Assembly (NCBI RefSeq): GCF_039649665.1
Contig: NZ_JBDJAW010000010.1
Location: 62,001 to 126,000, forward strand
Reading direction: 5' to 3'
Length of the DNA: 64,000 bases
DNA from: Microbispora sp. ZYX-F-249
Lineage (GTDB): Bacteria > Actinomycetota > Actinomycetes > Streptosporangiales > Streptosporangiaceae
A model generated the notes under the pieces. That model had not been told where the DNA came from and made no database searches. It saw only the letters and a program-made list of their open reading frames with translations. The translations under genes were made by a program, and so were the position numbers. This document shows, piece by piece, positions 35,540 to 44,978 of this stretch; within the stretch, counting starts at the first letter, position 1, and every line of letters begins with the position of its first letter.

Positions 35540-36139
35540 TCAGCGGACGGTCGCGGTGAGACGCTTTCCGTAGGCGTGCTTGACGAGCTCGATCAGGACT
35601 TCCTTGCCCGATTCCCGCTTGCGCGCGTCACACAGCATGATCGGCACGTCCCGGCCGAGGTTGAGGGCGAGCTTGACCTCGTCCAGGTCGAAGATCGGAG
35701 CACCCTCGAAGCAGTTCACCGCGACGACGAAGGGCGTGCCGCGACGCTCGAAGTAGTCGACGGAGGGGAAGCAGTCGGCGAGCCTGCGGGTGTCCGCCAG
35801 CACGACCGCGCCGAGCGCTCCCCGGGCGAGTTCGTCCCAGACGAACCAGAACCGCTCCTGGCCGGGGGTGCCGAAGAGATAGAGGACGAAGTCCTGCCCG
35901 ATGCTGATCCGGCCGAAATCCATGGCCACCGTGGTGGTGGACTTCGCCTCGACCCCGGACAGGTCGTCCACGCCGACGCTGCGGTCGGTCAGCGTCTCCT
36001 CCGTGCGCAGCGGCCGGATCTCCGACACCGCGCCGACCATCGTCGTCTTGCCCACCCCGAAACCCCCGGCGATCAGCAGCTTGATCGCCGTGGGCAACTT
36101 CGGGGGGGTCTGCGGCGAATCAGAGCGCCCGAAGGCCAT
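35540..36139 (-). CDS. Conservon GTP-binding protein (CvnD-like)
   Basis: The 199-residue small GTPase has P-loop GGFGVGKTTMVGAV, the G3-like sequence YLFGTPGQERFWFVWDEL (GTPGQ) and the G4-like VAVNCFEG. It is closest to the MglA-like GTPases of actinobacterial conservons. It overlaps the DUF742 gene by 20 bases as last gene of the four-gene unit. In the known system the GTPase, roadblock and DUF742 proteins form a membrane-associated complex with the histidine kinase, similar to a eukaryotic G-protein module. Confidence 0.9.
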   Translation of the reverse strand: MAFGRSDSPQTPPKLPTAIKLLIAGGFGVGKTTMVGAVSEIRPLRTEETLTDRSVGVDDLSGVEAKSTTTVAMDFGRISIGQDFVLYLFGTPGQERFWFVWDELARGALGAVVLADTRRLADCFPSVDYFERRGTPFVVAVNCFEGAPIFDLDEVKLALNLGRDVPIMLCDARKRESGKEVLIELVKHAYGKRLTATVR

Positions 36140-36494
36140 CGAGCACCGCCTTGTACATCCGCTCGTCGAGCACGTCCGTCTCCGGTTGGGGCTGTTGCAC
36201 GGCCACGAAACCCCGGTCGAACAGGTCGCCGAGGAGGACCCGGACGATCCCGGCCGGCAGGTCCAGATGGGCCGCGATCTCCGCGACCGACAGCGGCCTG
36301 CGGCACAGCCGCACGATCGCCTGGTGCTCGGGGTCCAGCCCGACCTCCGTCCCCGTGGTGGGCCGGATCGTCACCGCCAGCGAGATGAGGTCGAAGCGGT
36401 CCTGCGCCTCCGTACGGCCGCGTGCGATCACGTACGGCCGGATGGTCGGCGCGTCGAGTAAGCGCTCCTCGTCCGGGAACCCTCCGGCGTTCAC
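36120..36494 (-). CDS. Conservon DUF742 protein (CvnC-like)
   Basis: The 124-residue product shows the DUF742 pattern: RPYVIARGRTEAQDRFDLIS, a central winged-helix-like region (RLCRRPLSVAEIAAHLDLPAGIVRVLLGDL) and ERMYKAVLDGLRAL at the end. GTG 36494 overlaps the stop of the roadblock gene. It probably acts as adaptor in the conservon complex. Confidence 0.9.
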   Translation of the reverse strand: MNAGGFPDEERLLDAPTIRPYVIARGRTEAQDRFDLISLAVTIRPTTGTEVGLDPEHQAIVRLCRRPLSVAEIAAHLDLPAGIVRVLLGDLFDRGFVAVQQPQPETDVLDERMYKAVLDGLRAL

Positions 36495-36913
36495 AGGTGG
36501 ACCTCGCTCCCCGTCGTGGTGCGGGCCGGCGAGGTGAGGTACTGCCCGACGCGCGCGACGAGCATGGCCATCTCGTAGGCCACCAGGCCGACGTCGGCGT
36601 CTCCCGTGCAGAGCACGGCCAGGCAGGCGCCCTTGCCCGCCACGGTCACGAGCAGGTAGGCCGACTTCATCTCCACGATGGTCTGCCGTACGGGCCCGCC
36701 CTCGAAGCGCTCGCCGACACCGCGCGCGAGGCTCTGCAGGCCGGAGGCGACGGCGGACAGGTGCTCGGCGTCCTCCACCCGCAGGCCCTGCGAGCCGGCC
36801 AGCAGCAGGCCGTCCGTGGACAGCACGATGCCGTGCTCCACCTCGCGGATCCGTGCGACGAGGTCGTCGAGCAGCCACGCGAGGTCCGCGGAGGCCCCGG
36901 TCTTCTGCGTCAC
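36491..36913 (-). CDS. Conservon roadblock/LC7-domain protein (CvnB-like)
   Basis: The 140-residue roadblock/LC7 protein contains DLAWLLDDLVARIREVEHGIVLSTDGLLL and VEMKSAYLLVTVAGKGACLAVL. Family members regulate or stimulate small GTPases, here most likely the CvnD-like protein. Both ends overlap neighbouring genes by 4 bases, so the unit is translationally coupled. Confidence 0.9.
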   Translation of the reverse strand: MTQKTGASADLAWLLDDLVARIREVEHGIVLSTDGLLLAGSQGLRVEDAEHLSAVASGLQSLARGVGERFEGGPVRQTIVEMKSAYLLVTVAGKGACLAVLCTGDADVGLVAYEMAMLVARVGQYLTSPARTTTGSEVHL

Positions 36914-39210
36914 AGGTTGTCCTCCTCTTCGCCGAGCAGCTTCGCGGCTTCGGATCTGCCGCGCCTCGTCCCCGACTGGAACGAGCCCATGATCTTACGG
37001 ATGTCCTCGGGCGAGCGGTCCTCGTCGTCGTCCGCCGCGCTCTCGCGCCTCGGCTCCTCGGCGAGCGCGGGAGCGAGGTTCGCCTGCGGCACCCGGAACG
37101 GCAACCCCGACGGGGTGAACCCCGCCGTGGGCGCGAGCCTGTCCGGCTCGGCACCGCCGGAGGGTGGGACGCTCGGCACGGGCCTGGGCGGCTCGGGAGC
37201 CCTCGGCACGGGAACCACCTCCTGCACTGGTTCGGGAACCGCGTCGGGCACGCCCACCAGCGCGATCTTCCGGGCCGCGGGCTCCCGGCGTCCGAGACCG
37301 GGACCGGTCTCCTCCTCAGGCGCGACGTTCTCGCCCTCGATGACGAGGTCGCGCGGCAGCAGCACGACCGCGGTGGTGCCGCCGTACGGCGACGCCTTGA
37401 GGGACACCTTGATGCCGTGCCGCTCGGCCAGGCGGCTGACGACGTACAGCCCGAGCCTGGCGGTGCTCGACAGGTTGAACTCGGGCGGGTCGGCGATCCG
37501 CTGGTTGGTCGCCTCCAGGTCCTCGGCGCTCATCCCGAGGCCGCGGTCCTCGATCTCGATCGCGTAGCCGCTGGCCACCGCCTGGCCGCCCACCTGCACC
37601 ATCGTGTACGGCGGGGAGAACGACACCGCGTTCTCGATCAGCTCGGCGAGCAGGTGGATGACGTCGCCCACCGCGCGGCCGATGAGCGCGGTCTCCCCCA
37701 TCGGCATCACGGTGACGCGGGTGTAGTCCTCGACCTCCGCCAGCGCGCCGCGCACGACGTCGACCATCGGCACCGAGCGCCGCCACGCGCGGGCGGGGGA
37801 CGCCCCGGACAAAACGATGAGGTTCTCCGCGTTGCGCCGCATGCGGGTGGCGAGGTGGTCGATGCGGAACAGGTCCTTCAGCTCGGCCGGGTCCGACTCG
37901 CGCCGCTCCATCACGTCGAGCAGCGTGAGCTGACGGTGCACGAGCGACTGCGTACGCCGGGCGAGGCTGAGCAGGATGTCGCGGATGCTCTGCCGGAGCT
38001 GGGCCTCCTCGACGGCGGTGCGGATCGCGGTCTCCTGCACGGTGTTGAACGCCGCGCCCACCTGGCCGATGACGTCGGGCCCGAAGTCGAGCGGCGGCGC
38101 CTCGGCCTTGACGTCGACCTTCTCGCCCTGGGCGAGGCGGGAGACCACGCCGGGCAGGCGCTCGTTGGCCAGTTCGAGCGCGGCCTCGCGCAGCTTCTCC
38201 AGCTGGCGCACCAGCGCCCGGGCCGTGGTGACCGACAGGACGATCGACGCGATGACCGCCACGAGGCCGAGCACACCCGCCAGCACCAGCCGGATGATGA
38301 CGCCGGCGGCGACGGGGGTCGCCCGATCGACCATCGTCTCGCCCGCGCCGCCGACCACGTCGTGCAGCTGGGTCAGGACGGCGGACGTCGCCGACTGCCA
38401 CTGCTCTCCGCTCACGGGCGGGCGCAGGCCGGGCCTGCCCTGCTGCGCGACCAGGTCCTCCAGGCTGTGGAGCCGGGCGAGCGCCGCGCTCTTCTGCAGC
38501 CGCTGGTGGACGTCGGGAAGCGGCTCCTCCAGGTCGGCCTGCGCGAGGTCCATCACATTGCGCTCGGCACCGACGAGCTGGGTGAACTGGGCGACCTCCG
38601 TCTGGCCGAACCTGCCCGTCGCGATGACGCCGGCCAAAAGCGCATCTTCGCGTGAGATGAGTTCTCGGGCCCAGTTGAGGCTGATAAGTGTTCGCGTGTC
38701 TTTCGCGAGCTCGTCGTCGTCGAGCGTGGCGAGCGAATAGTAGACCTGGAAGAGGGAGTCGATGGGGTCGTTGTAGGCGTCGATGGCCTTGTTCCGGTCC
38801 ACCTGGCGCGCGTCCACCGCGTGCCGCGCGGAACCGAGCTGGTCGAGCTGCCGGAACGTGCGGTCGATCCGTCTGCGGAGCTCGTCGGTCGCCGCGAACC
38901 GCATGATGTCGGTGTTCGTGAGCCTGCGGAACTCGCCCGCGGCGGCGTCCGTACGGCCGCGCTGCGCGGTGAGGTCGGCGGACGGGACCAGCGCGGGGTT
39001 CACCAGGCGGGAGACCGACAGGCGCCGCTCCTTCTGCAGCTCCACCAGCAGGGACTCACTCGGCTGGGCGACGTTGCTGTCGTAGACCGCCACCCACGCG
39101 AGGTTGAGACCATCCCGCACGGTCACCCACGCGGCGAAGACCCAAAGGGCCGCAAGCGACACGAGCAAGGCCGTGACTTTGGTCCGCACGCGCGAGTTGC
39201 GGAAGCGCAT
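36910..39210 (-). CDS. Conservon sensor histidine kinase with nitrate/nitrite-sensor domain (CvnA-like)
   Basis: The 766-residue membrane kinase has helix 1 (KVTALLVSLAALWVFAAWV), an extracytoplasmic all-helical NIT-type sensor (about 40-290), a second helix (VIIRLVLAGVLGLVAVIASI) and a HAMP segment. The kinase region has LLSLARRTQSLVHRQLTLLD in place of a normal H-box, and the ATPase has N-box LIENAVSFSPP and G-box EDRGLGMS. After it comes a 180-residue Pro-rich tail (VQEVVPVPRAPEPPRPVP) ending GEEEDNL. The start may be ATG 39210 (MRFRNSR, with GGTGGG upstream) or one of the TTG/GTG codons just before. It is the first gene of the conservon; a P450 often ends such units but not here. Confidence 0.9.
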   Translation of the reverse strand: MRFRNSRVRTKVTALLVSLAALWVFAAWVTVRDGLNLAWVAVYDSNVAQPSESLLVELQKERRLSVSRLVNPALVPSADLTAQRGRTDAAAGEFRRLTNTDIMRFAATDELRRRIDRTFRQLDQLGSARHAVDARQVDRNKAIDAYNDPIDSLFQVYYSLATLDDDELAKDTRTLISLNWARELISREDALLAGVIATGRFGQTEVAQFTQLVGAERNVMDLAQADLEEPLPDVHQRLQKSAALARLHSLEDLVAQQGRPGLRPPVSGEQWQSATSAVLTQLHDVVGGAGETMVDRATPVAAGVIIRLVLAGVLGLVAVIASIVLSVTTARALVRQLEKLREAALELANERLPGVVSRLAQGEKVDVKAEAPPLDFGPDVIGQVGAAFNTVQETAIRTAVEEAQLRQSIRDILLSLARRTQSLVHRQLTLLDVMERRESDPAELKDLFRIDHLATRMRRNAENLIVLSGASPARAWRRSVPMVDVVRGALAEVEDYTRVTVMPMGETALIGRAVGDVIHLLAELIENAVSFSPPYTMVQVGGQAVASGYAIEIEDRGLGMSAEDLEATNQRIADPPEFNLSSTARLGLYVVSRLAERHGIKVSLKASPYGGTTAVVLLPRDLVIEGENVAPEEETGPGLGRREPAARKIALVGVPDAVPEPVQEVVPVPRAPEPPRPVPSVPPSGGAEPDRLAPTAGFTPSGLPFRVPQANLAPALAEEPRRESAADDDEDRSPEDIRKIMGSFQSGTRRGRSEAAKLLGEEEDNL

Positions 39211-39432
39211 AACACCCACCAAGCGACATATGAAGAGCCGTCATAGCGCGTTTCCCGGCGATTGACCAACAGTTCATCGCTAGGGCGGCGGACATCGCCC
39301 AACATTTTATAGCCGCGCCACGCCCCGCCACCTTAGCAATGGACAGAAAATCGCTCAAGGCCGCATTATGTACGCCATTTGGGGCAAATGTACGAATGTA
39401 TGCCTATATAGCGTGATCAAGCGACCTGATGA

Positions 39433-41028
39433 TCATAGTTGACGATGCCTGTCGACAACAAGTCGACTGGACTGTGCGAGGTGCAGGGCGGCGAGGATCG
39501 CCGCCCTGACCACCGCGACCGGCAGGTAGAGGTCCTTGTCGTGCCACAGCGGCGGGTCGTCGGCCTCGCCCGCCCGGAGCAGGTATGCGTATCCTTTGGC
39601 GGCCGCCTCCGCGACGAGCCCGTCCTCACGGTGGTCGCGGCTCAGCAGCAGCAGTTGCAGGGCGTAGGCCGTCTCCTCCCGGGTGCCGTCCCAGCGGCCC
39701 CAGGATCCGTCGGCCCGCTGGGTCTCCAGCACCCACCGCACGGCCCCCCGCACGGAGGACGCGCAGCCGGCGCCGCCGAACGTGTCGAGCGCCAGCGCGC
39801 AGGCGACGGTCGCGTAGTAGGGCGAGGCGTGCCAGCGGTCCTCCCACCAGCCCTCCGGCCGCTGGCGCGCGCGGAGCCAGTTCTCGATCGCGTCCATGTC
39901 GGGCCGGTAGCGCTCCGCGGCCTCCGGCCGCACCGCCGCGTACTGCCCCAAGGCGTCGAGGACGTGGGCGTTCACGCTGACCGACGCCCCCTCCTCCCCC
40001 TGCCAGGTGCAGAAGTGGGTGTCCGTGCGGAAGGCCCGCAGGCTGTCCGGCTCGTGCGGCATGCCGAGGAGCGCGAGGGCGTACAGGGCGACCGACGTGG
40101 TGTCGGCGTCCGGCGGCAGACCGGCGCCGGCGGGCGTGCCGACCGGCTGGATCGCGGCCCGCAGGTCCGCCAGCATCTCCGGCGGCACCTCGAAGGGGAT
40201 CCCCGCGCGGGCGAGCCAGCTCAGCACCCAGCCGCGTTCGAAGACCGTGATCGGAAGGCCCACGGGGACCGGCCCGCCGTACCGTCGTGCGACCGCCTCC
40301 AGGTGCCGCCTGGCCGCGGTGCCCGGATCCGGCAGCGCGCGGTCGCCGAGCCAGGCGGCGGTGGCGGCCGGGGAGGCGCCGACGGTGCCGATCGAGGTCG
40401 GCTGGACGCCCGGGGCCCCGTGGGCGGCGGGACCGGCCGTCTCCAGCGCGTGCATGAGCTTCTGCGGCAGTTCCGCGCCGGAGCCGACCCGCGACCTGAC
40501 CGCGGCGAGCCGGTGGTCGTCCATGCCCGCGGGCAGCCGCAGCCGCGGGCGCCCGGACAGATGGGGCATATCCCGGTCGGCCAGCGTGTCCAGGTGCGCG
40601 TTGACCAGCTCGACCAGCGCGGGCACGATCAGCTCGATCGCCGGCATGTCGGGGAACAGCGGCGCGGTGCCCCGCGGCGGCCAGCCGAGCAGCCAGTCCA
40701 GCCCTCGGCCGGCCGCCCGCGAGAGCGTCTCCCGATCGGGCTCCCCCCGCGACAGCGCGCACAGGAGCGCCTCGGTCGCGCTCAACGTGGGGACGAGGGC
40801 GTACCCGTCCGGCCCGCCCCAGCGGCCGTCGGGCCGCTGGCCGTCCAGCAGGAACCGCACCCGTTCCGCGTGGCCCACCAGCCACGGCGCCAGGCTCACC
40901 AGCCGCCCGGTCTCGTACACGGAGGGGGAGACCGTGCCCCACGGCCGGACCATGAGGTCGGCGACCAGTTCGGCGGCCGCGGCCGCCACGTCGACCGCCC
41001 TGGGGAAGGTCAGGCCGCCGACGCTCAC
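39433..41028 (-). CDS. Class II diterpene cyclase (copalyl/halimadienyl diphosphate synthase type)
   Basis: The 531-residue product has the squalene-cyclase/prenyltransferase alpha-barrel pattern, with QW-type repeats QRPDGRWGGPDGYALVPTL, QRPEGWWEDRWHASPYYAT and QRADGSWGRWDGTREETAYAL. The catalytic acid motif reads DADTTSVALYAL at about residues 307-311. This is DxDT where plant enzymes have DxDD; as I recall, the M. tuberculosis halimadienyl diphosphate synthase also has a DxDTT form. It would protonate and cyclise geranylgeranyl diphosphate, keeping the diphosphate for the class I enzyme encoded just before it. The start is GTG 41028, overlapping the stop of the class I gene. No GGPP synthase is nearby. 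Confidence 0.8.
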   Translation of the reverse strand: MSVGGLTFPRAVDVAAAAAELVADLMVRPWGTVSPSVYETGRLVSLAPWLVGHAERVRFLLDGQRPDGRWGGPDGYALVPTLSATEALLCALSRGEPDRETLSRAAGRGLDWLLGWPPRGTAPLFPDMPAIELIVPALVELVNAHLDTLADRDMPHLSGRPRLRLPAGMDDHRLAAVRSRVGSGAELPQKLMHALETAGPAAHGAPGVQPTSIGTVGASPAATAAWLGDRALPDPGTAARRHLEAVARRYGGPVPVGLPITVFERGWVLSWLARAGIPFEVPPEMLADLRAAIQPVGTPAGAGLPPDADTTSVALYALALLGMPHEPDSLRAFRTDTHFCTWQGEEGASVSVNAHVLDALGQYAAVRPEAAERYRPDMDAIENWLRARQRPEGWWEDRWHASPYYATVACALALDTFGGAGCASSVRGAVRWVLETQRADGSWGRWDGTREETAYALQLLLLSRDHREDGLVAEAAAKGYAYLLRAGEADDPPLWHDKDLYLPVAVVRAAILAALHLAQSSRLVVDRHRQL

Positions 41029-41924
41029 AGCCCACCCCAGTAGTCGGTGATCCCGTAGAAGCCCATGCTGTACCCGATCTGCCTTTCCAGATAGACCACC
41101 TCGTCCGGGCAGACGTCGCGCAGCGGCTCCAGGAGCTCGCCGCACCCGTCCACCAGGACGCCGACGCGTCCGGCGATCTCCTCCCGGCCCGAGCAGAGCA
41201 TCAGCGCGTTGAGATCGCCCCAGGCGAGGTCCCGCTCGTACGTGGCCAGGTCGTTGAGCAGGCGCAGGACGCGCTGCACCCGGCCGCTCGCGGCCCGCAG
41301 CTCGTCGAGCCGGCCGAGCGCGGCCGGGTCTCCGCCCCGGATCCAGTGGGACACGTTGACGAAGGACGAGCCGAAGTTGTCCGCGTTGTCGAGATACTCG
41401 TCCAGCGTGGGCGGCGGCGTCCCCTCGCGGGCGGCCGTCTTCCAGTCCCACTCCCGCGCCATCGCCGACAGCATGCGCCGAAGTTCCTCCCGCCAGACGG
41501 CCTCCAGCTCGGTGAACGCGGGCGCCGCGGCGAGCCCGTCCCTGAGCTCGGCGAGGAATCCGCCCAGCGGGAAGTCCCGCGGCGGCGGTGCGCCGTCCGC
41601 CACCTCCAGGCAGCCGCGGACGAGGCGGTCCACCTCCTCCCGCGACTTCGCCATGTAATCGAGCAGCCAGTCGAGCGCGAAGATCCACAACGCCGTACGG
41701 CTCGCGACGCGCAACCGGTCCGCGCTCGCCCACGGCGCGCCGAACGCGTTGGCCTGCGCGACCGCGCTGAACAGCGCCGAGTCGAACGGCCGCGCCGGGA
41801 AGAGGGCGGGGTAGGCGTCCCGGCACGCGCGCAGATCCCGCTGGAGCTCGGCGGACACGGCGGCGGCGGCACCGCATTCCCTGGCCGCCCGGAGCGCGTC
41901 TCCTGTCGGCTTCGTCATGTGCAT
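41025..41924 (-). CDS. Class I terpene synthase
   Basis: The 299-residue alpha-helical synthase has the Asp-rich motif as DWLLD, Asp85 to Asp89 (ALDWLLDYMAKS), a reduced form of DDxxD. The Mg2+-binding NSE triad is Asn224, Thr228 and Glu232 (NDLATYERD). It would ionise the bicyclic diphosphate made by the class II partner and complete a diterpene skeleton. It is shorter than plant kaurene synthases, as bacterial single-domain enzymes are. ATG 41924 and ATG 41918 are both possible. It is encoded between the P450 (11-base gap) and the class II cyclase (4-base overlap), so all three form one operon. Confidence 0.8.
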   Translation of the reverse strand: MHMTKPTGDALRAARECGAAAAVSAELQRDLRACRDAYPALFPARPFDSALFSAVAQANAFGAPWASADRLRVASRTALWIFALDWLLDYMAKSREEVDRLVRGCLEVADGAPPPRDFPLGGFLAELRDGLAAAPAFTELEAVWREELRRMLSAMAREWDWKTAAREGTPPPTLDEYLDNADNFGSSFVNVSHWIRGGDPAALGRLDELRAASGRVQRVLRLLNDLATYERDLAWGDLNALMLCSGREEIAGRVGVLVDGCGELLEPLRDVCPDEVVYLERQIGYSMGFYGITDYWGGL

Positions 41925-41935
41925 GGGTGTCCCGG

Positions 41936-43303
41936 TCAGGTACGGCGGATGGGGCGCAAGGTGATCTCGACCCGCTGGCGCGGCCGCAGCGAGGCCCCCA
42001 TCTGGGGCGTCGCCACCTCCGGACTGCAGGAGAGGATCTCGTAGCGGCTGAGGATGCCCGCGATGATCAGCTGGGCCTCCAGCATGAAGACGTGCATGCC
42101 GAGACACTGATGAGGGCCCCCGCCGAAAGGGAAGTACGCGTACCTGTGCCGGCCCGTCGACCGGCGCCCGGAGAAGCGGCCGGGGTCGAACTCCTCCGGC
42201 CGCTCCCAGAACGCCTCCATGCGGTGGGTGATGAACGGGCTGACGACGATCGTCTCGCCCTTCTTGAGCAGCACTCCGCCGAGGGGCTCCGGCTCGACGA
42301 CCATCCGGGGGAACAGCCAGCCCACGGGGAACAGCCGCAGGAGTTCCTGCACGACCTGCTTGGTGTACGGCAGGTCCGCCAGATGCGCGGGCCGTACGGG
42401 TCCGTGCCCGACCACGAGGCGGATCTCCCGCCGCAGACTCGCGGCCACCTCGGGATGCGCCCCCAGGATGGGCCACAGCCAGGTGAGCGCGCCCGCCGTG
42501 GTCTCGGTGGCGGTGGCCAGCATGGCGACCAGGTTGTCGCGCACCCATCGGGCGCTCGGTCCGCCACCGGCCGCGTCCCCGGTCCGGCACAGGACCGAGA
42601 CGATGTCGTCGCCGTCGCCCGGCCCGTCCTTGTGCCTGTCCACGAGCGGCACCACGACGTCGTCGATCGTCCGCAGGGCGTTCCGGAACGCGCGGTCCCC
42701 CGGGAGCGGGACGCGGTAGGGGACGAACGGCAGTAGGTAGCGGAAGATGACGGACGTGCCGACCGTGTCGAACGCCGGGGCGAGCCGCTCGGCGTCCGCC
42801 ATGCCGATCTTGTCGCCGAAGAAGACCCGCATCACGACCCTGTTGACGATCCGCGCCATCACCGCGGAGACGTCGATGGGGAGGCCGGACTCGGCGGGTG
42901 CGGCGAGTTCGTCGATCCCCTCGCCGGCCGCCTCCGCCACACGGTCCGCGAGCGCTTCCACGTTCTTGGCGGTGAACACGGGCTGCAGAACCTTGCGGCT
43001 CCGCTCCCACGCGGGGCCGTCGGACATGACGCTCTCTCCGAAGAGCCGGTGCAGCGGCTTCCAGAGGACGCCGTCACGCCGGTAGTTGACGGAGTTGCCG
43101 CGCAGGACGTGCTGCAGGTGATCGGGGTGTGTGATCAGGTACGGCCGGAAGGGACCCAGGTTCACCCTGACGACGTCGCCACCGGATTTCCTGCCGATCT
43201 CGAGGACGGCGCCGACCGGATCACGGAGGATCGCCGGAAGGACCTGCCGGAGGGGAAGAGTTCTCGCTTGTCGGATCGGGTTCGCGTCAACATCGATCGG
43301 CAT
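41936..43303 (-). CDS. Cytochrome P450
   Basis: The 455-residue haem monooxygenase carries the I-helix motif MLATATETTAG, the K-helix VVQELLRLFP (ExxR), the PERF-like EEFDPGRFSG and the haem loop FPFGGGPHQCLG with Cys400 as iron ligand. The overall pattern (long, no membrane anchor, PFGGGPHQCLG) is like the CYP102/CYP4-related bacterial P450s rather than the short actinobacterial CYP105/107 types. As first gene of the terpene operon it most likely oxidises the diterpene hydrocarbon. No ferredoxin or reductase gene is adjacent, so it needs redox partners from elsewhere. Confidence 0.9.
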   Translation of the reverse strand: MPIDVDANPIRQARTLPLRQVLPAILRDPVGAVLEIGRKSGGDVVRVNLGPFRPYLITHPDHLQHVLRGNSVNYRRDGVLWKPLHRLFGESVMSDGPAWERSRKVLQPVFTAKNVEALADRVAEAAGEGIDELAAPAESGLPIDVSAVMARIVNRVVMRVFFGDKIGMADAERLAPAFDTVGTSVIFRYLLPFVPYRVPLPGDRAFRNALRTIDDVVVPLVDRHKDGPGDGDDIVSVLCRTGDAAGGGPSARWVRDNLVAMLATATETTAGALTWLWPILGAHPEVAASLRREIRLVVGHGPVRPAHLADLPYTKQVVQELLRLFPVGWLFPRMVVEPEPLGGVLLKKGETIVVSPFITHRMEAFWERPEEFDPGRFSGRRSTGRHRYAYFPFGGGPHQCLGMHVFMLEAQLIIAGILSRYEILSCSPEVATPQMGASLRPRQRVEITLRPIRRT

Positions 43304-43363
43304 TCCGGCTTGCTCCCCACCTGACGATCACGCCGTTCGCGAAGTATCACATGATCCACTCCG

Positions 43364-43373
43364 ATTGATCAAT
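43364..43373. promoter_or_regulatory. ATTGATCAAT palindrome upstream of the terpene operon
   Basis: A perfect 10-bp palindrome lies 60 bases before the P450 start, in an AT-rich stretch that must hold the operon promoter. It could be a regulator site, but a short AT-rich palindrome may also occur by chance. Confidence 0.25.
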
Positions 43374-43480
43374 GATGCGGCGACTGACAATTTTCGTCCC
43401 ATGAGGCGAGAGATGCGCCGATGGCGCACTTTGCCCGCATAGTGACGTATGACACGTTTTGCGGGTTTGCCGAGCGGGGA

Positions 43481-43619: not shown

Positions 43620-43901
43620 GGGGACCGATCCTCTCGGTGACGTGCGAAAAGTAGACCGACGTGCAGCATATTCGGTCGTGCGGCCAGGTGGAACCCGGCA
43701 TCGCCGCAGGCGATGAACCAGGGGACGGCGTGCCCGGAGTGCCCCCCGAGACCGGTCGGGGACGCGACCGCCGCCCGGTCGATTCATCCGTTGAAACGTA
43801 CATACATCCCCGCTGGTCAGGGCTTTTGCCGCAGCTCGTCCCTGGGCGGGGCGGCGGGCCGCTCTCTACCATCGCGCCGGACAGCACGAGGGAGAGACGC
43901 G

Positions 43902-44978
43902 ATGTCGAAGAGAAGTGCGGTGATGGCGGCCCTGCTCCTGGTGCTCGGGCTGCTCGTCGCCCGGCCCGCCGAGGCGGCCACGGTGCGGATCATGCCCCTG
44001 GGCGACTCGATCACCGGATCGCCCGGCTGCTGGCGCGCGCTGCTGTGGAACAAGCTGCAGAACGGCGGCTTCACCGACGTCGACATGGTGGGCACGCTGC
44101 CCGCGCAGGGTTGCGGGGTGCCGTACGACGGCGACAACGAAGGCCACGGCGGCTTCCTCGTCACGAACGTCGCCGACCAGAACCAGCTGCCGGCCTGGCT
44201 CTCGGCGACCCGTCCCGACATCGTGCTGATGCACTTCGGCACCAACGACGTGTGGAGCAACAGGCCCACCGCCACGATCCTCGCGGCGTACGGCAAACTC
44301 GTGGACCAGATGCGGGCGAGCAACCCGAACATGAGGATCCTCGTCGCGCAGATCATCCCGATGAACCCGAGCACCTGCCCCGAGTGCGCCCAGCGGGCCG
44401 TCGCGCTGAACAGCGCGATTCCGGGCTGGGCCGCCTCGAAGACCACGGCGGCCTCGCCGATCGTGGTCGTCGACCAGTGGACCGGCTTCAGCACGAGCGC
44501 GGACACCTACGACGGCGTCCACCCCAACGCGAGCGGCGACCAGAAGATGGCGGACAAGTGGTATCCCGCTCTGTCGGCGCTGCTCGGCGGCGCGCAGCCG
44601 TCCCCGAGCCCCGGGTCCCCCAGCCCCAGCCCCAGCGTGAGCCCGTCGGCGTCGCCCTCCGCGCGTCCCAGCCCCTCCGGCTGCGCCGCGACCTACAAGA
44701 TCACCAACCAGTGGGGCGGCGGCTTCCAGGGTGAGGTCACGGTCAAGAACACGGGCGCCGCCGCGATCAGCGGCTGGACCGTGACCTGGACCTACGCCAA
44801 CGGGCAGCAGGTCACCCAGGCGTGGGGCGGCAAGGCCACGCAGAGCGGGGCGAGCGTGACGGTCAAGAACGAGAGCTGGAACGGCTCCCTCGGTGCCGGC
44901 GCGAGCACGACCTTCGGCTTCATCGCCTCCTGGAACGCCGCCAACGCCGCCCCTGCGCCCGGCTGCATCGCCGCCTAG
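43902..44978 (+). CDS. Secreted SGNH esterase with cellulose-binding module (CBM2)
   Basis: The 358-residue product has a signal peptide (MSKRSAVMAALLLVLGLLVA) and an SGNH/GDSL hydrolase domain: block I MPLGDSITGS (catalytic Ser), block III HFGTNDVW (Asn) and block V DGVHPNASGD (Asp, His). A Pro/Ser linker of about 35 residues leads to a C-terminal CBM2: YKITNQWGGGFQGEVTVKNTG, WTVTWTYANGQQV, ending WNAANAAPAPGCIAA. Such enzymes remove acetyl groups from xylan or similar plant polysaccharides. ATG 43902 has GAGGGAG upstream. The 3' end is part of a 71-bp tandem duplication. Confidence 0.9.
   Translation: MSKRSAVMAALLLVLGLLVARPAEAATVRIMPLGDSITGSPGCWRALLWNKLQNGGFTDVDMVGTLPAQGCGVPYDGDNEGHGGFLVTNVADQNQLPAWLSATRPDIVLMHFGTNDVWSNRPTATILAAYGKLVDQMRASNPNMRILVAQIIPMNPSTCPECAQRAVALNSAIPGWAASKTTAASPIVVVDQWTGFSTSADTYDGVHPNASGDQKMADKWYPALSALLGGAQPSPSPGSPSPSPSVSPSASPSARPSPSGCAATYKITNQWGGGFQGEVTVKNTGAAAISGWTVTWTYANGQQVTQAWGGKATQSGASVTVKNESWNGSLGAGASTTFGFIASWNAANAAPAPGCIAA

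Follow-up and report, generated by a model that had tools for sequence, protein, structure and literature searches.

What purpose does a diterpenoid gene cassette serve when a complete signalling operon follows it on the same strand? This question is raised by a stretch of 64,000 nucleotides from Microbispora sp. ZYX-F-249 (contig NZ_JBDJAW010000010.1, positions 62,001 to 126,000; hereafter the window), in which an original prediction had recognized a three-gene cassette at positions 39433-43303 comprising a cytochrome P450, a class I diterpene synthase and a class II diterpene cyclase. All three genes are present on the minus strand with the corresponding domain matches (Table 1), and their description as a tightly coupled operon was borne out by the 11 bases that separate the P450 stop from the class I start and by the GTG start of the class II gene, which overlaps the class I stop. 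However, although the three genes are real and coupled, the unit to which they belong is larger. A complete conservon (39222-35540), absent from the first reading, lies approximately 0.2 kb downstream of the class II gene on the same strand and shows the cvnA-B-C-D order and the domains typical of conservons (AGPS). Since the unit thus consists of seven genes including a conservon, the likely purpose of the cassette changes.

Comparison of related loci suggests that the P450, class I and class II genes are exchanged between close relatives in a single block that also includes the NIT domain of CvnA. We infer, with a probability of roughly 50%, that the seven genes form a private signalling system in which an oxidized pimarane-type diterpenoid serves as the signal and the NIT domain of CvnA as its receptor.

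Table 1. Features of the seven-gene locus, with positions counted from the first nucleotide of the window
Feature	Position	Strand	Remarks
Exchanged block, relative to M. catharanthi (L017)	38272..43479	-	from ~176 bp before the P450 ATG to ~CvnA residue 317
GATCATGTGATACT element upstream of P450	43343..43356	-	sole copy in the host genome at <=1 mismatch
Cytochrome P450, 455 aa	41936..43303	-	Pfam p450, 214 bits
Class I diterpene synthase, 299 aa	41025..41924	-	Terpene_syn_C_2, 45 bits
Class I synthase residues			DWLLD 85-89; NDLATYERD 224-232; Phe184 (= Sat1646 Tyr183); Tyr290 (= Tyr288)
Class II diterpene cyclase (predicted copalyl diphosphate synthase), 531 aa	39433..41028	-	SQHop_cyclase_C, 47.7 bits
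Class II cyclase residues			DADT 307-310; DMPAIE 127-132; His193; His355; Arg398; Asp497; Tyr501
Promoter-like element TTGAG-N-TTGCTAAGGT, between class II and cvnA	39330..39358	-	similar elements in other genera
cvnA, sensor histidine kinase-like protein, 770 aa	36910..39222	-	NIT + HATPase
NIT domain of CvnA, residues 58-297	38332..39051	-	predicted between two membrane spans; hyperdivergent
cvnB, Roadblock/LC7 protein	36491..36913	-	
cvnC, DUF742 protein	36120..36494	-	
cvnD, small GTPase (ATP_bind_1)	35540..36139	-	

Conservation of the seven-gene unit

A single scan of bacterial genomes yielded 128 relatives of the class I gene, and 80 loci were kept. The P450, class I, class II and cvnA to cvnD genes followed one another in one order and on one strand in 66 of 71 loci, the other 9 of the 80 ending too soon, and this order was kept across several related genera. 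The flanks of the locus were largely genus-specific, and no open reading frame (ORF) family of at least 120 aa beyond the seven occurred in more than 27 of the 80 loci. Within the host's family the class II gene was present in 34 of 80 genomes, and conservon genes lay beside 33 of the 35 class II matches outside the host (4 of these 33 being genomes already among the 80 loci). The exceptions were L160 and L163; the latter, another divergent second class II copy, ends within the class II gene, leaving its downstream side unseen. L160 represents a second, divergent class II cyclase with a DSDD motif and adjoins neither a conservon nor a class I relative. Across the class, 11 of 246 genomes contained the class I gene, as did 43 of 150 in a further family and as many as 146 of 160 genomes of Micromonospora (genus as in the genome collection). 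The assignment to Micromonospora is based on G419 and G495, in which the match coordinates are identical to those in the named Micromonospora records L084 and L062, respectively.

The host's other conservon loci, some of which are cut by contig ends, showed no diterpene genes beside them in tblastn searches. A chance neighbourhood was considered and rejected, eight DUF742 matches over the cut-off in 8.8 Mb corresponding to a chance of about 2% per 21-kb stretch. In a tree of CvnA proteins, members of the locus broadly followed taxonomy and most other conservons were set apart; because the label 'other conservon' requires four changes on this tree, to which the very long rows L166 and the unlabelled L158_376 contribute, we make no claim of strict monophyly.

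Losses within the locus also link the P450 to CvnA. Two loci (L021 and L024) have lost the P450 together with all of cvnA except its tail, and in a third (L065) both the P450 and the conservon are lost, so that CvnA loss was seen in 3 of 4 cases in which the P450 was absent versus 0 of 67 otherwise (Fisher, 7e-5; 1.2e-3 when L021 and L024 are counted once). Thermomonospora echinospora (L085) carries two divergent units, one with the class II gene, a cvnA remnant and cvnB-D, and the other, in the opposite direction, with the P450, the class I gene and a full conservon.

Apparent exchange of the biosynthesis genes together with the NIT domain

Distances between the parts of the locus were correlated over 92 loci of a larger set of 116, 24 named loci being left out as truncated, duplicate or lacking a gene (the larger set includes L131, L132, L137 and L156, which come from the same genomes as L022, L014, L059 and L085, respectively). 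The mean distance was highest for NIT (.61) and lowest for the kinase (.25). Given all other parts, the partial correlation with NIT amounted to.54 for the P450,.34 for the class II and.26 for the class I gene, and to -.02 for the kinase; that between the kinase and the P450 was -.02 as well. The correlation between NIT and the P450 was thus the strongest of any biosynthesis gene, despite the class I and class II genes lying in between, and it was found within Micromonospora (.54), within Actinomadura with Thermomonospora (.84) and in the remaining, mainly Streptosporangiaceae loci (.61).

The block-wise divergence is also seen at fourfold-degenerate sites. Between the window and M. catharanthi, distances within the block were.53 (P450),.48 (class I),.45 (class II) and.61 (NIT), whereas the rest differed by.14 (HAMP/DHp),.12 (kinase),.15 (cvnB),.08 (cvnC),.16 (cvnD) and.21 (a flanking SBP gene). 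Similar values were obtained against G163, which belongs to a set of five Microbispora genomes, with.53,.48,.45 and.63 for the same four parts of the block and.13,.15,.08,.16 and.21 for the kinase, cvnB, cvnC, cvnD and the SBP gene, respectively. Faster protein evolution alone was rejected as an explanation, since the fourfold-degenerate sites are far apart too. Because such sites differ by approximately.5 between Microbispora and Micromonospora, the swapped blocks are near saturation, and the age of the swaps is not readable from them.

Breakpoints were located in 14 pairs chosen for close kinases and unlike cassettes, which share some loci and are therefore not independent. The change point in cvnA fell at residues 289-318 in 13 of these pairs and at residue 366 in the remaining one, close to where NIT ends and the second membrane span starts. 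On the upstream side, 12 of the 14 pairs regained homology within 43-367 bp of the P450 start, the nearest upstream match being short in some (68-96 bp in three).

After pairs with fewer than 60 fourfold sites had been dropped, 490 pairs were left (106 of 210 for Actinomadura). Among 71 close pairs the biosynthesis genes were unlike in 28, of which 26 also had an unlike NIT, alike in 32, all with an alike NIT, and in between in 11. The opposite case was represented by L043 and L055, whose blocks were closer (.09) than their backbones (.22). Block kinship and backbone kinship cross in the five Microbispora genomes: by backbone, G163 groups with G214 and G234 with G065, and these sisters carry unlike blocks, while by block the window groups with G234 and G163, less closely, with G065 (fourfold.32-.38), G214 standing alone. 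Likewise, two nominal M. rosea records (P0121 and L019, one of them marked unverified) carry different blocks with 58% class I identity.

Hyperdivergence as a general property of NIT domains was rejected with the help of four other conservon families from the same genomes. In 16 comparisons their NIT domains differed by.13-.39 at fourfold sites and by.08-.22 at the protein level, near the values of their kinases (fourfold.09-.32). This control excludes four non-orthologous own_C85 comparisons and the L166 conservon, and own_C9_1 contributed no row to it. Conservons such as Cvn1-13 of S. coelicolor and the mycobacterial Mfp system share the cvnA-B-C-D order and the NIT, HATPase, roadblock, DUF742 and GTPase domains with the operon in the window, which differs from them in that diterpene genes precede cvnA and in that its NIT is hyperdivergent, unlike that of the four control families.

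Predicted product of the biosynthesis genes

The closest matches of both the class I and the class II protein came from Microbispora (89-91% identity). A search against characterized class II cyclases, which the original prediction had proposed as a check, gave PtmT2, an ent-copalyl diphosphate (ent-CPP) synthase, with 411 bits, Tpn2 with 234 bits and Rv3377c with 115 bits. The window enzyme belongs to the same fold family as these three and has their catalytic set of a central Asp (D309 of DADT), a DxxxxE metal motif (D127-E132), an activating His (H355) and a Tyr (Y501, equivalent to Tpn2 Tyr489), to which H193 can be added as the equivalent of Tpn2 His180. The basic diphosphate-binding residue, K383 in Tpn2, is Arg398 in the window, and Arg in the Salinispora-type enzyme too. 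Motif statistics were obtained from the window protein plus the best 120 of 443 class I or of 1612 class II matches. The central motif was DxDT in 116 and DxDS in 5 of the 121 class II rows; the window enzyme has DxDT rather than DxDD, as does Rv3377c (DCDT). The DxDT and DWLLD motifs noted earlier are thus both present, but their characterization as unusual was mistaken, since they are family-wide among the relatives listed, which also led us to reject motif decay.

Labdane, halimane and clerodane skeletons had all been considered possible for this locus. Asp497 corresponds to position 485 of Tpn2, a labdane/clerodane switch at which Gly gives clerodane and Asp shifts the product towards labdane (Stowell et al., PMC9814783). 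Asp occupied this position in 120 of the 121 rows (one gap) and, in the locus set, in 108 of 116 rows (the remainder being 5 rows with Gly and 3 with a gap), whereas Rv3377c has Ala and Tpn2 Gly there. Moreover, the Salinispora-type class II enzyme has the DADTTA, LWHDKDLY and DRWH signatures in common with the window enzyme, and its gene adjoins a class I gene 98% identical to Sat1646, a characterized isopimaradiene synthase; the Salinispora cluster has been reported to make normal CPP and isopimara-8,15-dien-19-ol (PMC9814573). Asp497, the closeness to PtmT2 and the Salinispora-type signatures narrow the earlier range to the labdane type, and the class II enzyme is likely a normal-CPP synthase. 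A halimane or clerodane product was rejected on account of Asp497 and of the 115 bits to Rv3377c versus 411 to PtmT2. A halimadienyl diphosphate synthase would be expected to have a non-acidic switch residue and to be close to Rv3377c, and neither was found; the database label 'halimadienyl-diphosphate synthase' carried by some relatives appears doubtful. Since the labdane (CPP)-linked Asp497 is kept, a pimarane-type diterpenoid is predicted as the product of the locus.

The class I protein matched Sat1646 with 299 bits. Its Asp85 and Asp89 correspond to the two Mg-binding Asp residues of Sat1646 (Asp88 and Asp92, in EDWQVD), which were kept in all 121 class I rows, and its second metal motif, NDLATYERD, fits NDxx(S,T)xxx(E,D). 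Because of this correspondence DWLLD is likely a working motif. The Tyr183-Tyr288 dyad of Sat1646, associated with the 8,15-diene product, is represented by Phe184 and Tyr290 in the window, and the Y183F exchange in Sat1646 blocked the 8,15-diene and led to isopimara-8(14),15-diene (PMC9814573). With Phe184 in place of Tyr183, the window enzyme is predicted to be a Sat1646 relative that places the double bond differently, forming isopimara-8(14),15-diene. Microbispora hainanensis CSR-4 has yielded a compound with 8(14),15-pimaradiene bonds (PMC7338456), whereas an 8,15-diene was obtained from a Micromonospora (PMC4584356); the match between the CSR-4 compound and the Phe184 prediction, made without the CSR-4 locus, is suggestive only. 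Among 112 rows, position 184 showed ten residue types (F 36, L 46, Y 11, T 7, H 3, C 3, V 2, A 2, I 1, M 1), with Cys in the G214-type Microbispora allele, which suggests that products probably differ between lineages and makes this position a candidate rule for product prediction.

No polyprenyl synthase match was found on the window's contig, and six were found elsewhere in the genome, in agreement with the earlier statement that no geranylgeranyl diphosphate (GGPP) synthase lies nearby. The expectation of a cyclized, oxidized diterpenoid drawn from the general GGPP pool was, as far as can be predicted, correct.

One of the closest known systems is the Salinispora terp1/sat cluster (SaCPS, SaDTS/Sat1646 and CYP1051A1), which comprises the same three enzymes as the window. 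In a Salinispora-type genome the whole seven-gene locus, including the conservon, is present in the same order, with 51% (class I), 54% (class II) and 45.8% (P450) identity to the window, and DADT, the Asp switch and DRWH are common to both; Tyr183 of Sat1646 versus Phe184 of the window is a difference. Neither 'conservon' nor 'histidine kinase' appears in the accessible part of the main text of the Sat1646 paper (PMC9814573).

A possible diterpenoid signal and its receptor

According to the proposed mechanism, the class II cyclase would protonate GGPP by means of Asp309 to give normal CPP, which the class I synthase would ionize with closure of the third ring, Phe184 directing the window allele to isopimara-8(14),15-diene. 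The P450 would then oxidize the diene, as CYP1051A1 does in Salinispora (19-ol), and the product would leave the cell and bind the predicted extracellular NIT domain of CvnA. As described for other conservons in the literature, CvnA might act via CvnB (GTPase-activating protein-like) and CvnC (guanine nucleotide exchange factor-like) on the GTPase CvnD. A diterpenoid ligand of CvnA would be an economical explanation of the matched polymorphism, in which signal genes and the outer domain of the sensor vary over a constant kinase.

In the agr system, signal genes and the outer domain of the sensor are polymorphic together over a constant kinase. Similarly, comQXP is highly polymorphic with the 3' part of comP conserved (PMC12935306). 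Judged at the level of the locus and from its sequence, the features of such pherotype loci (comQXPA; agr) recur here: signal-making genes vary as one block with the sensor outer domain over a conserved kinase half, and alike blocks are found across species. By analogy, the locus would work like a pherotype quorum-sensing system, although we do not file it as a member of this class, which is defined by a secreted signal acting on its own receptor allele alone. It differs from comQXPA and agr in that there is no response regulator among its seven genes, which instead encode terpenoid enzymes and a GTPase module. No peptide pheromone gene was found among the seven genes, ORFs of fewer than 120 aa lying outside the search. 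We put forward more tentatively, as a proposition somewhat less probable than the signalling role itself, that a cyclic diterpenoid acts as a bacterial pheromone, in that an exchangeable cassette (a lineage-specific pimarane and its NIT reader) sits on a constant Ras-like GTPase module, and that this cassette is carried by most Micromonospora and many Streptosporangiales.

Conservons are widespread actinomycete signalling operons whose sensory input is largely unexplored (PMC13343842), and the locus offers both a candidate ligand pathway and a candidate receptor domain. If the proposal is true, the locus would be the first terpenoid pherotype system and would supply the first known conservon ligand. 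Matched and mismatched alleles occur naturally and make the question of such a ligand directly testable. A signalling role could also explain the near-universal presence of the class I gene in Micromonospora. Such clusters are mined for drugs, and the approach to switching them on would change if they make signals. A published link between terpenes and conservons was not found among the papers listed, 10-20 of many per search, so that such a paper may exist; the word start 'Terpen' is absent from the main text of the AGPS paper (PMC13343842).

Several observations weigh against a diterpenoid signal read by NIT. As the block is contiguous, its parts could travel together through linkage alone. 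The subgroup tests of the NIT-P450 correlation (each p.001, 999 permutations) were uncorrected for phylogeny, and the adjacent class I and class II genes were correlated by.49 within Micromonospora and.57 within Actinomadura with Thermomonospora. Within Micromonospora, replacement was confined to 3 of 25 close pairs, and the biosynthesis genes are correlated with the backbone just as strongly as with NIT (r.81 each). Among 3720 classified pairs, 22 had an alike P450 with an unlike NIT. One locus (L086) lacks the P450 and retains the conservon, and two other loci (L134 and L147) are without the usual class I gene; next to their class II gene, but on the opposite strand, lies a different class I-like gene (DDxxD and NDVRxFERE, by eye), as if the usual one had been displaced, and a Sat1646-type class I gene lies on another contig (G003:C297) of the L134 genome. 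Finally, NIT domains are named for nitrate/nitrite, and pure cultures failed to reveal the Salinispora product (PMC10301674).

Alternative explanations

In an unlikely alternative, the product is output rather than input; the cassette would make a diterpenoid antibiotic or protective lipid, and the conservon would be its linked regulator and respond to an unrelated cue from outside. In S. coelicolor an adjacent lanthipeptide cluster is repressed by Cvn8, which also influences antibiotic genes (PMC13343842, PMC8510531). Furthermore, 35 of 75 loci have TTGA-N15-20-TGCTANNGT in the gap separating class II from cvnA, versus a mean of 0.02 in 200 mononucleotide shuffles, suggesting that the conservon is probably transcribed from its own promoter, and such an element would allow the two halves to be transcribed separately. 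However, a linked regulator does not predict that NIT changes with the biosynthesis genes over an unchanged kinase, nor that this pattern is lacking in four other conservon families.

Slightly less probable again is hitchhiking, in which recombination would replace the biosynthesis genes, with the upstream flank and the conserved kinase as arms and NIT merely lying inside them. The contiguity of the block, its break where conserved sequence starts and the correlations of neighbouring class I and class II genes within Micromonospora and Actinomadura are consistent with such a process. Yet over the 92 loci, given the rest, NIT and the P450 at the block ends were more strongly correlated (.54) than the adjacent class I and class II genes (.10), and the NIT-P450 correlation was.54-.84 in each of the three subgroups. 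In addition, NIT was carried along in 26 of 28 replaced pairs, and none of the 3720 classified pairs combined an alike NIT with an unlike P450.

We consider it improbable that the diterpenoid harms competitors and that CvnA is the matched self-sensing or tolerance device. Toxin/immunity pairs are generally known to give polymorphic matched blocks as well. Weak cytotoxicity has been listed for an isopimaradiene from Micromonospora, and antibacterial activity for the norditerpenoid actinomadurol (PMC6562664, PMC10301674), but no further gene family of at least 120 aa, such as a transporter, is kept with the unit, and presence in 146 of 160 Micromonospora genomes would be unusual for an accessory weapon.

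Very improbable is a role of the P450 as a CvnE-like protein partner of CvnA, with protein contact instead of a ligand behind co-loss and covariation. The P450 and CvnA are indeed lost together in 3 of 4 cases, and CvnE11 has been predicted to touch the HATPase domains of CvnA11 (PMC13343842). The P450 in the window, however, covaries with the predicted extracellular NIT (.54) and not with the cytoplasmic kinase (-.02), and it lies upstream of a NIT-bearing CvnA, whereas CvnE P450s follow the core genes and are overwhelmingly found with CvnA proteins that lack NIT or another sensor domain (PMC13343842). That the three genes are a stand-alone specialized-metabolite cassette, as first read, can practically be dismissed, because the fixed seven-gene order contradicts it, even though three genes suffice for the chemistry and terp1 consists of two synthases and a P450 (PMC9814573).

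Upstream region and flanking genes

An 8-mer, TGTGATAC, was common to 35 of 77 loci within 400 bp upstream of the P450. Also upstream of the P450, a 30-residue ORF with one likely membrane span (43619-43527, minus strand) precedes a GC-rich hairpin and a T run, and DNA very similar to this region is found upstream of the P450 in three other Microbispora loci (L011, L012 and L013). Just upstream of the locus, positions 43713-44978 (plus strand) encode a secreted SGNH-type hydrolase whose C-terminal part resembles a carbohydrate-binding module (by eye).

A second partial unit (a P450 fragment, the cvnA tail, cvnB and part of cvnC) lies next to an intact locus at L223:1-1460. The locus is followed by a NuoN-like gene in about 20 Actinomadura loci (L020 kind) and by an aconitase-like gene in about 20 Micromonospora loci (L029 kind), both genes being named by eye, and in these two kinds it occupies genus-typical chromosomal places.

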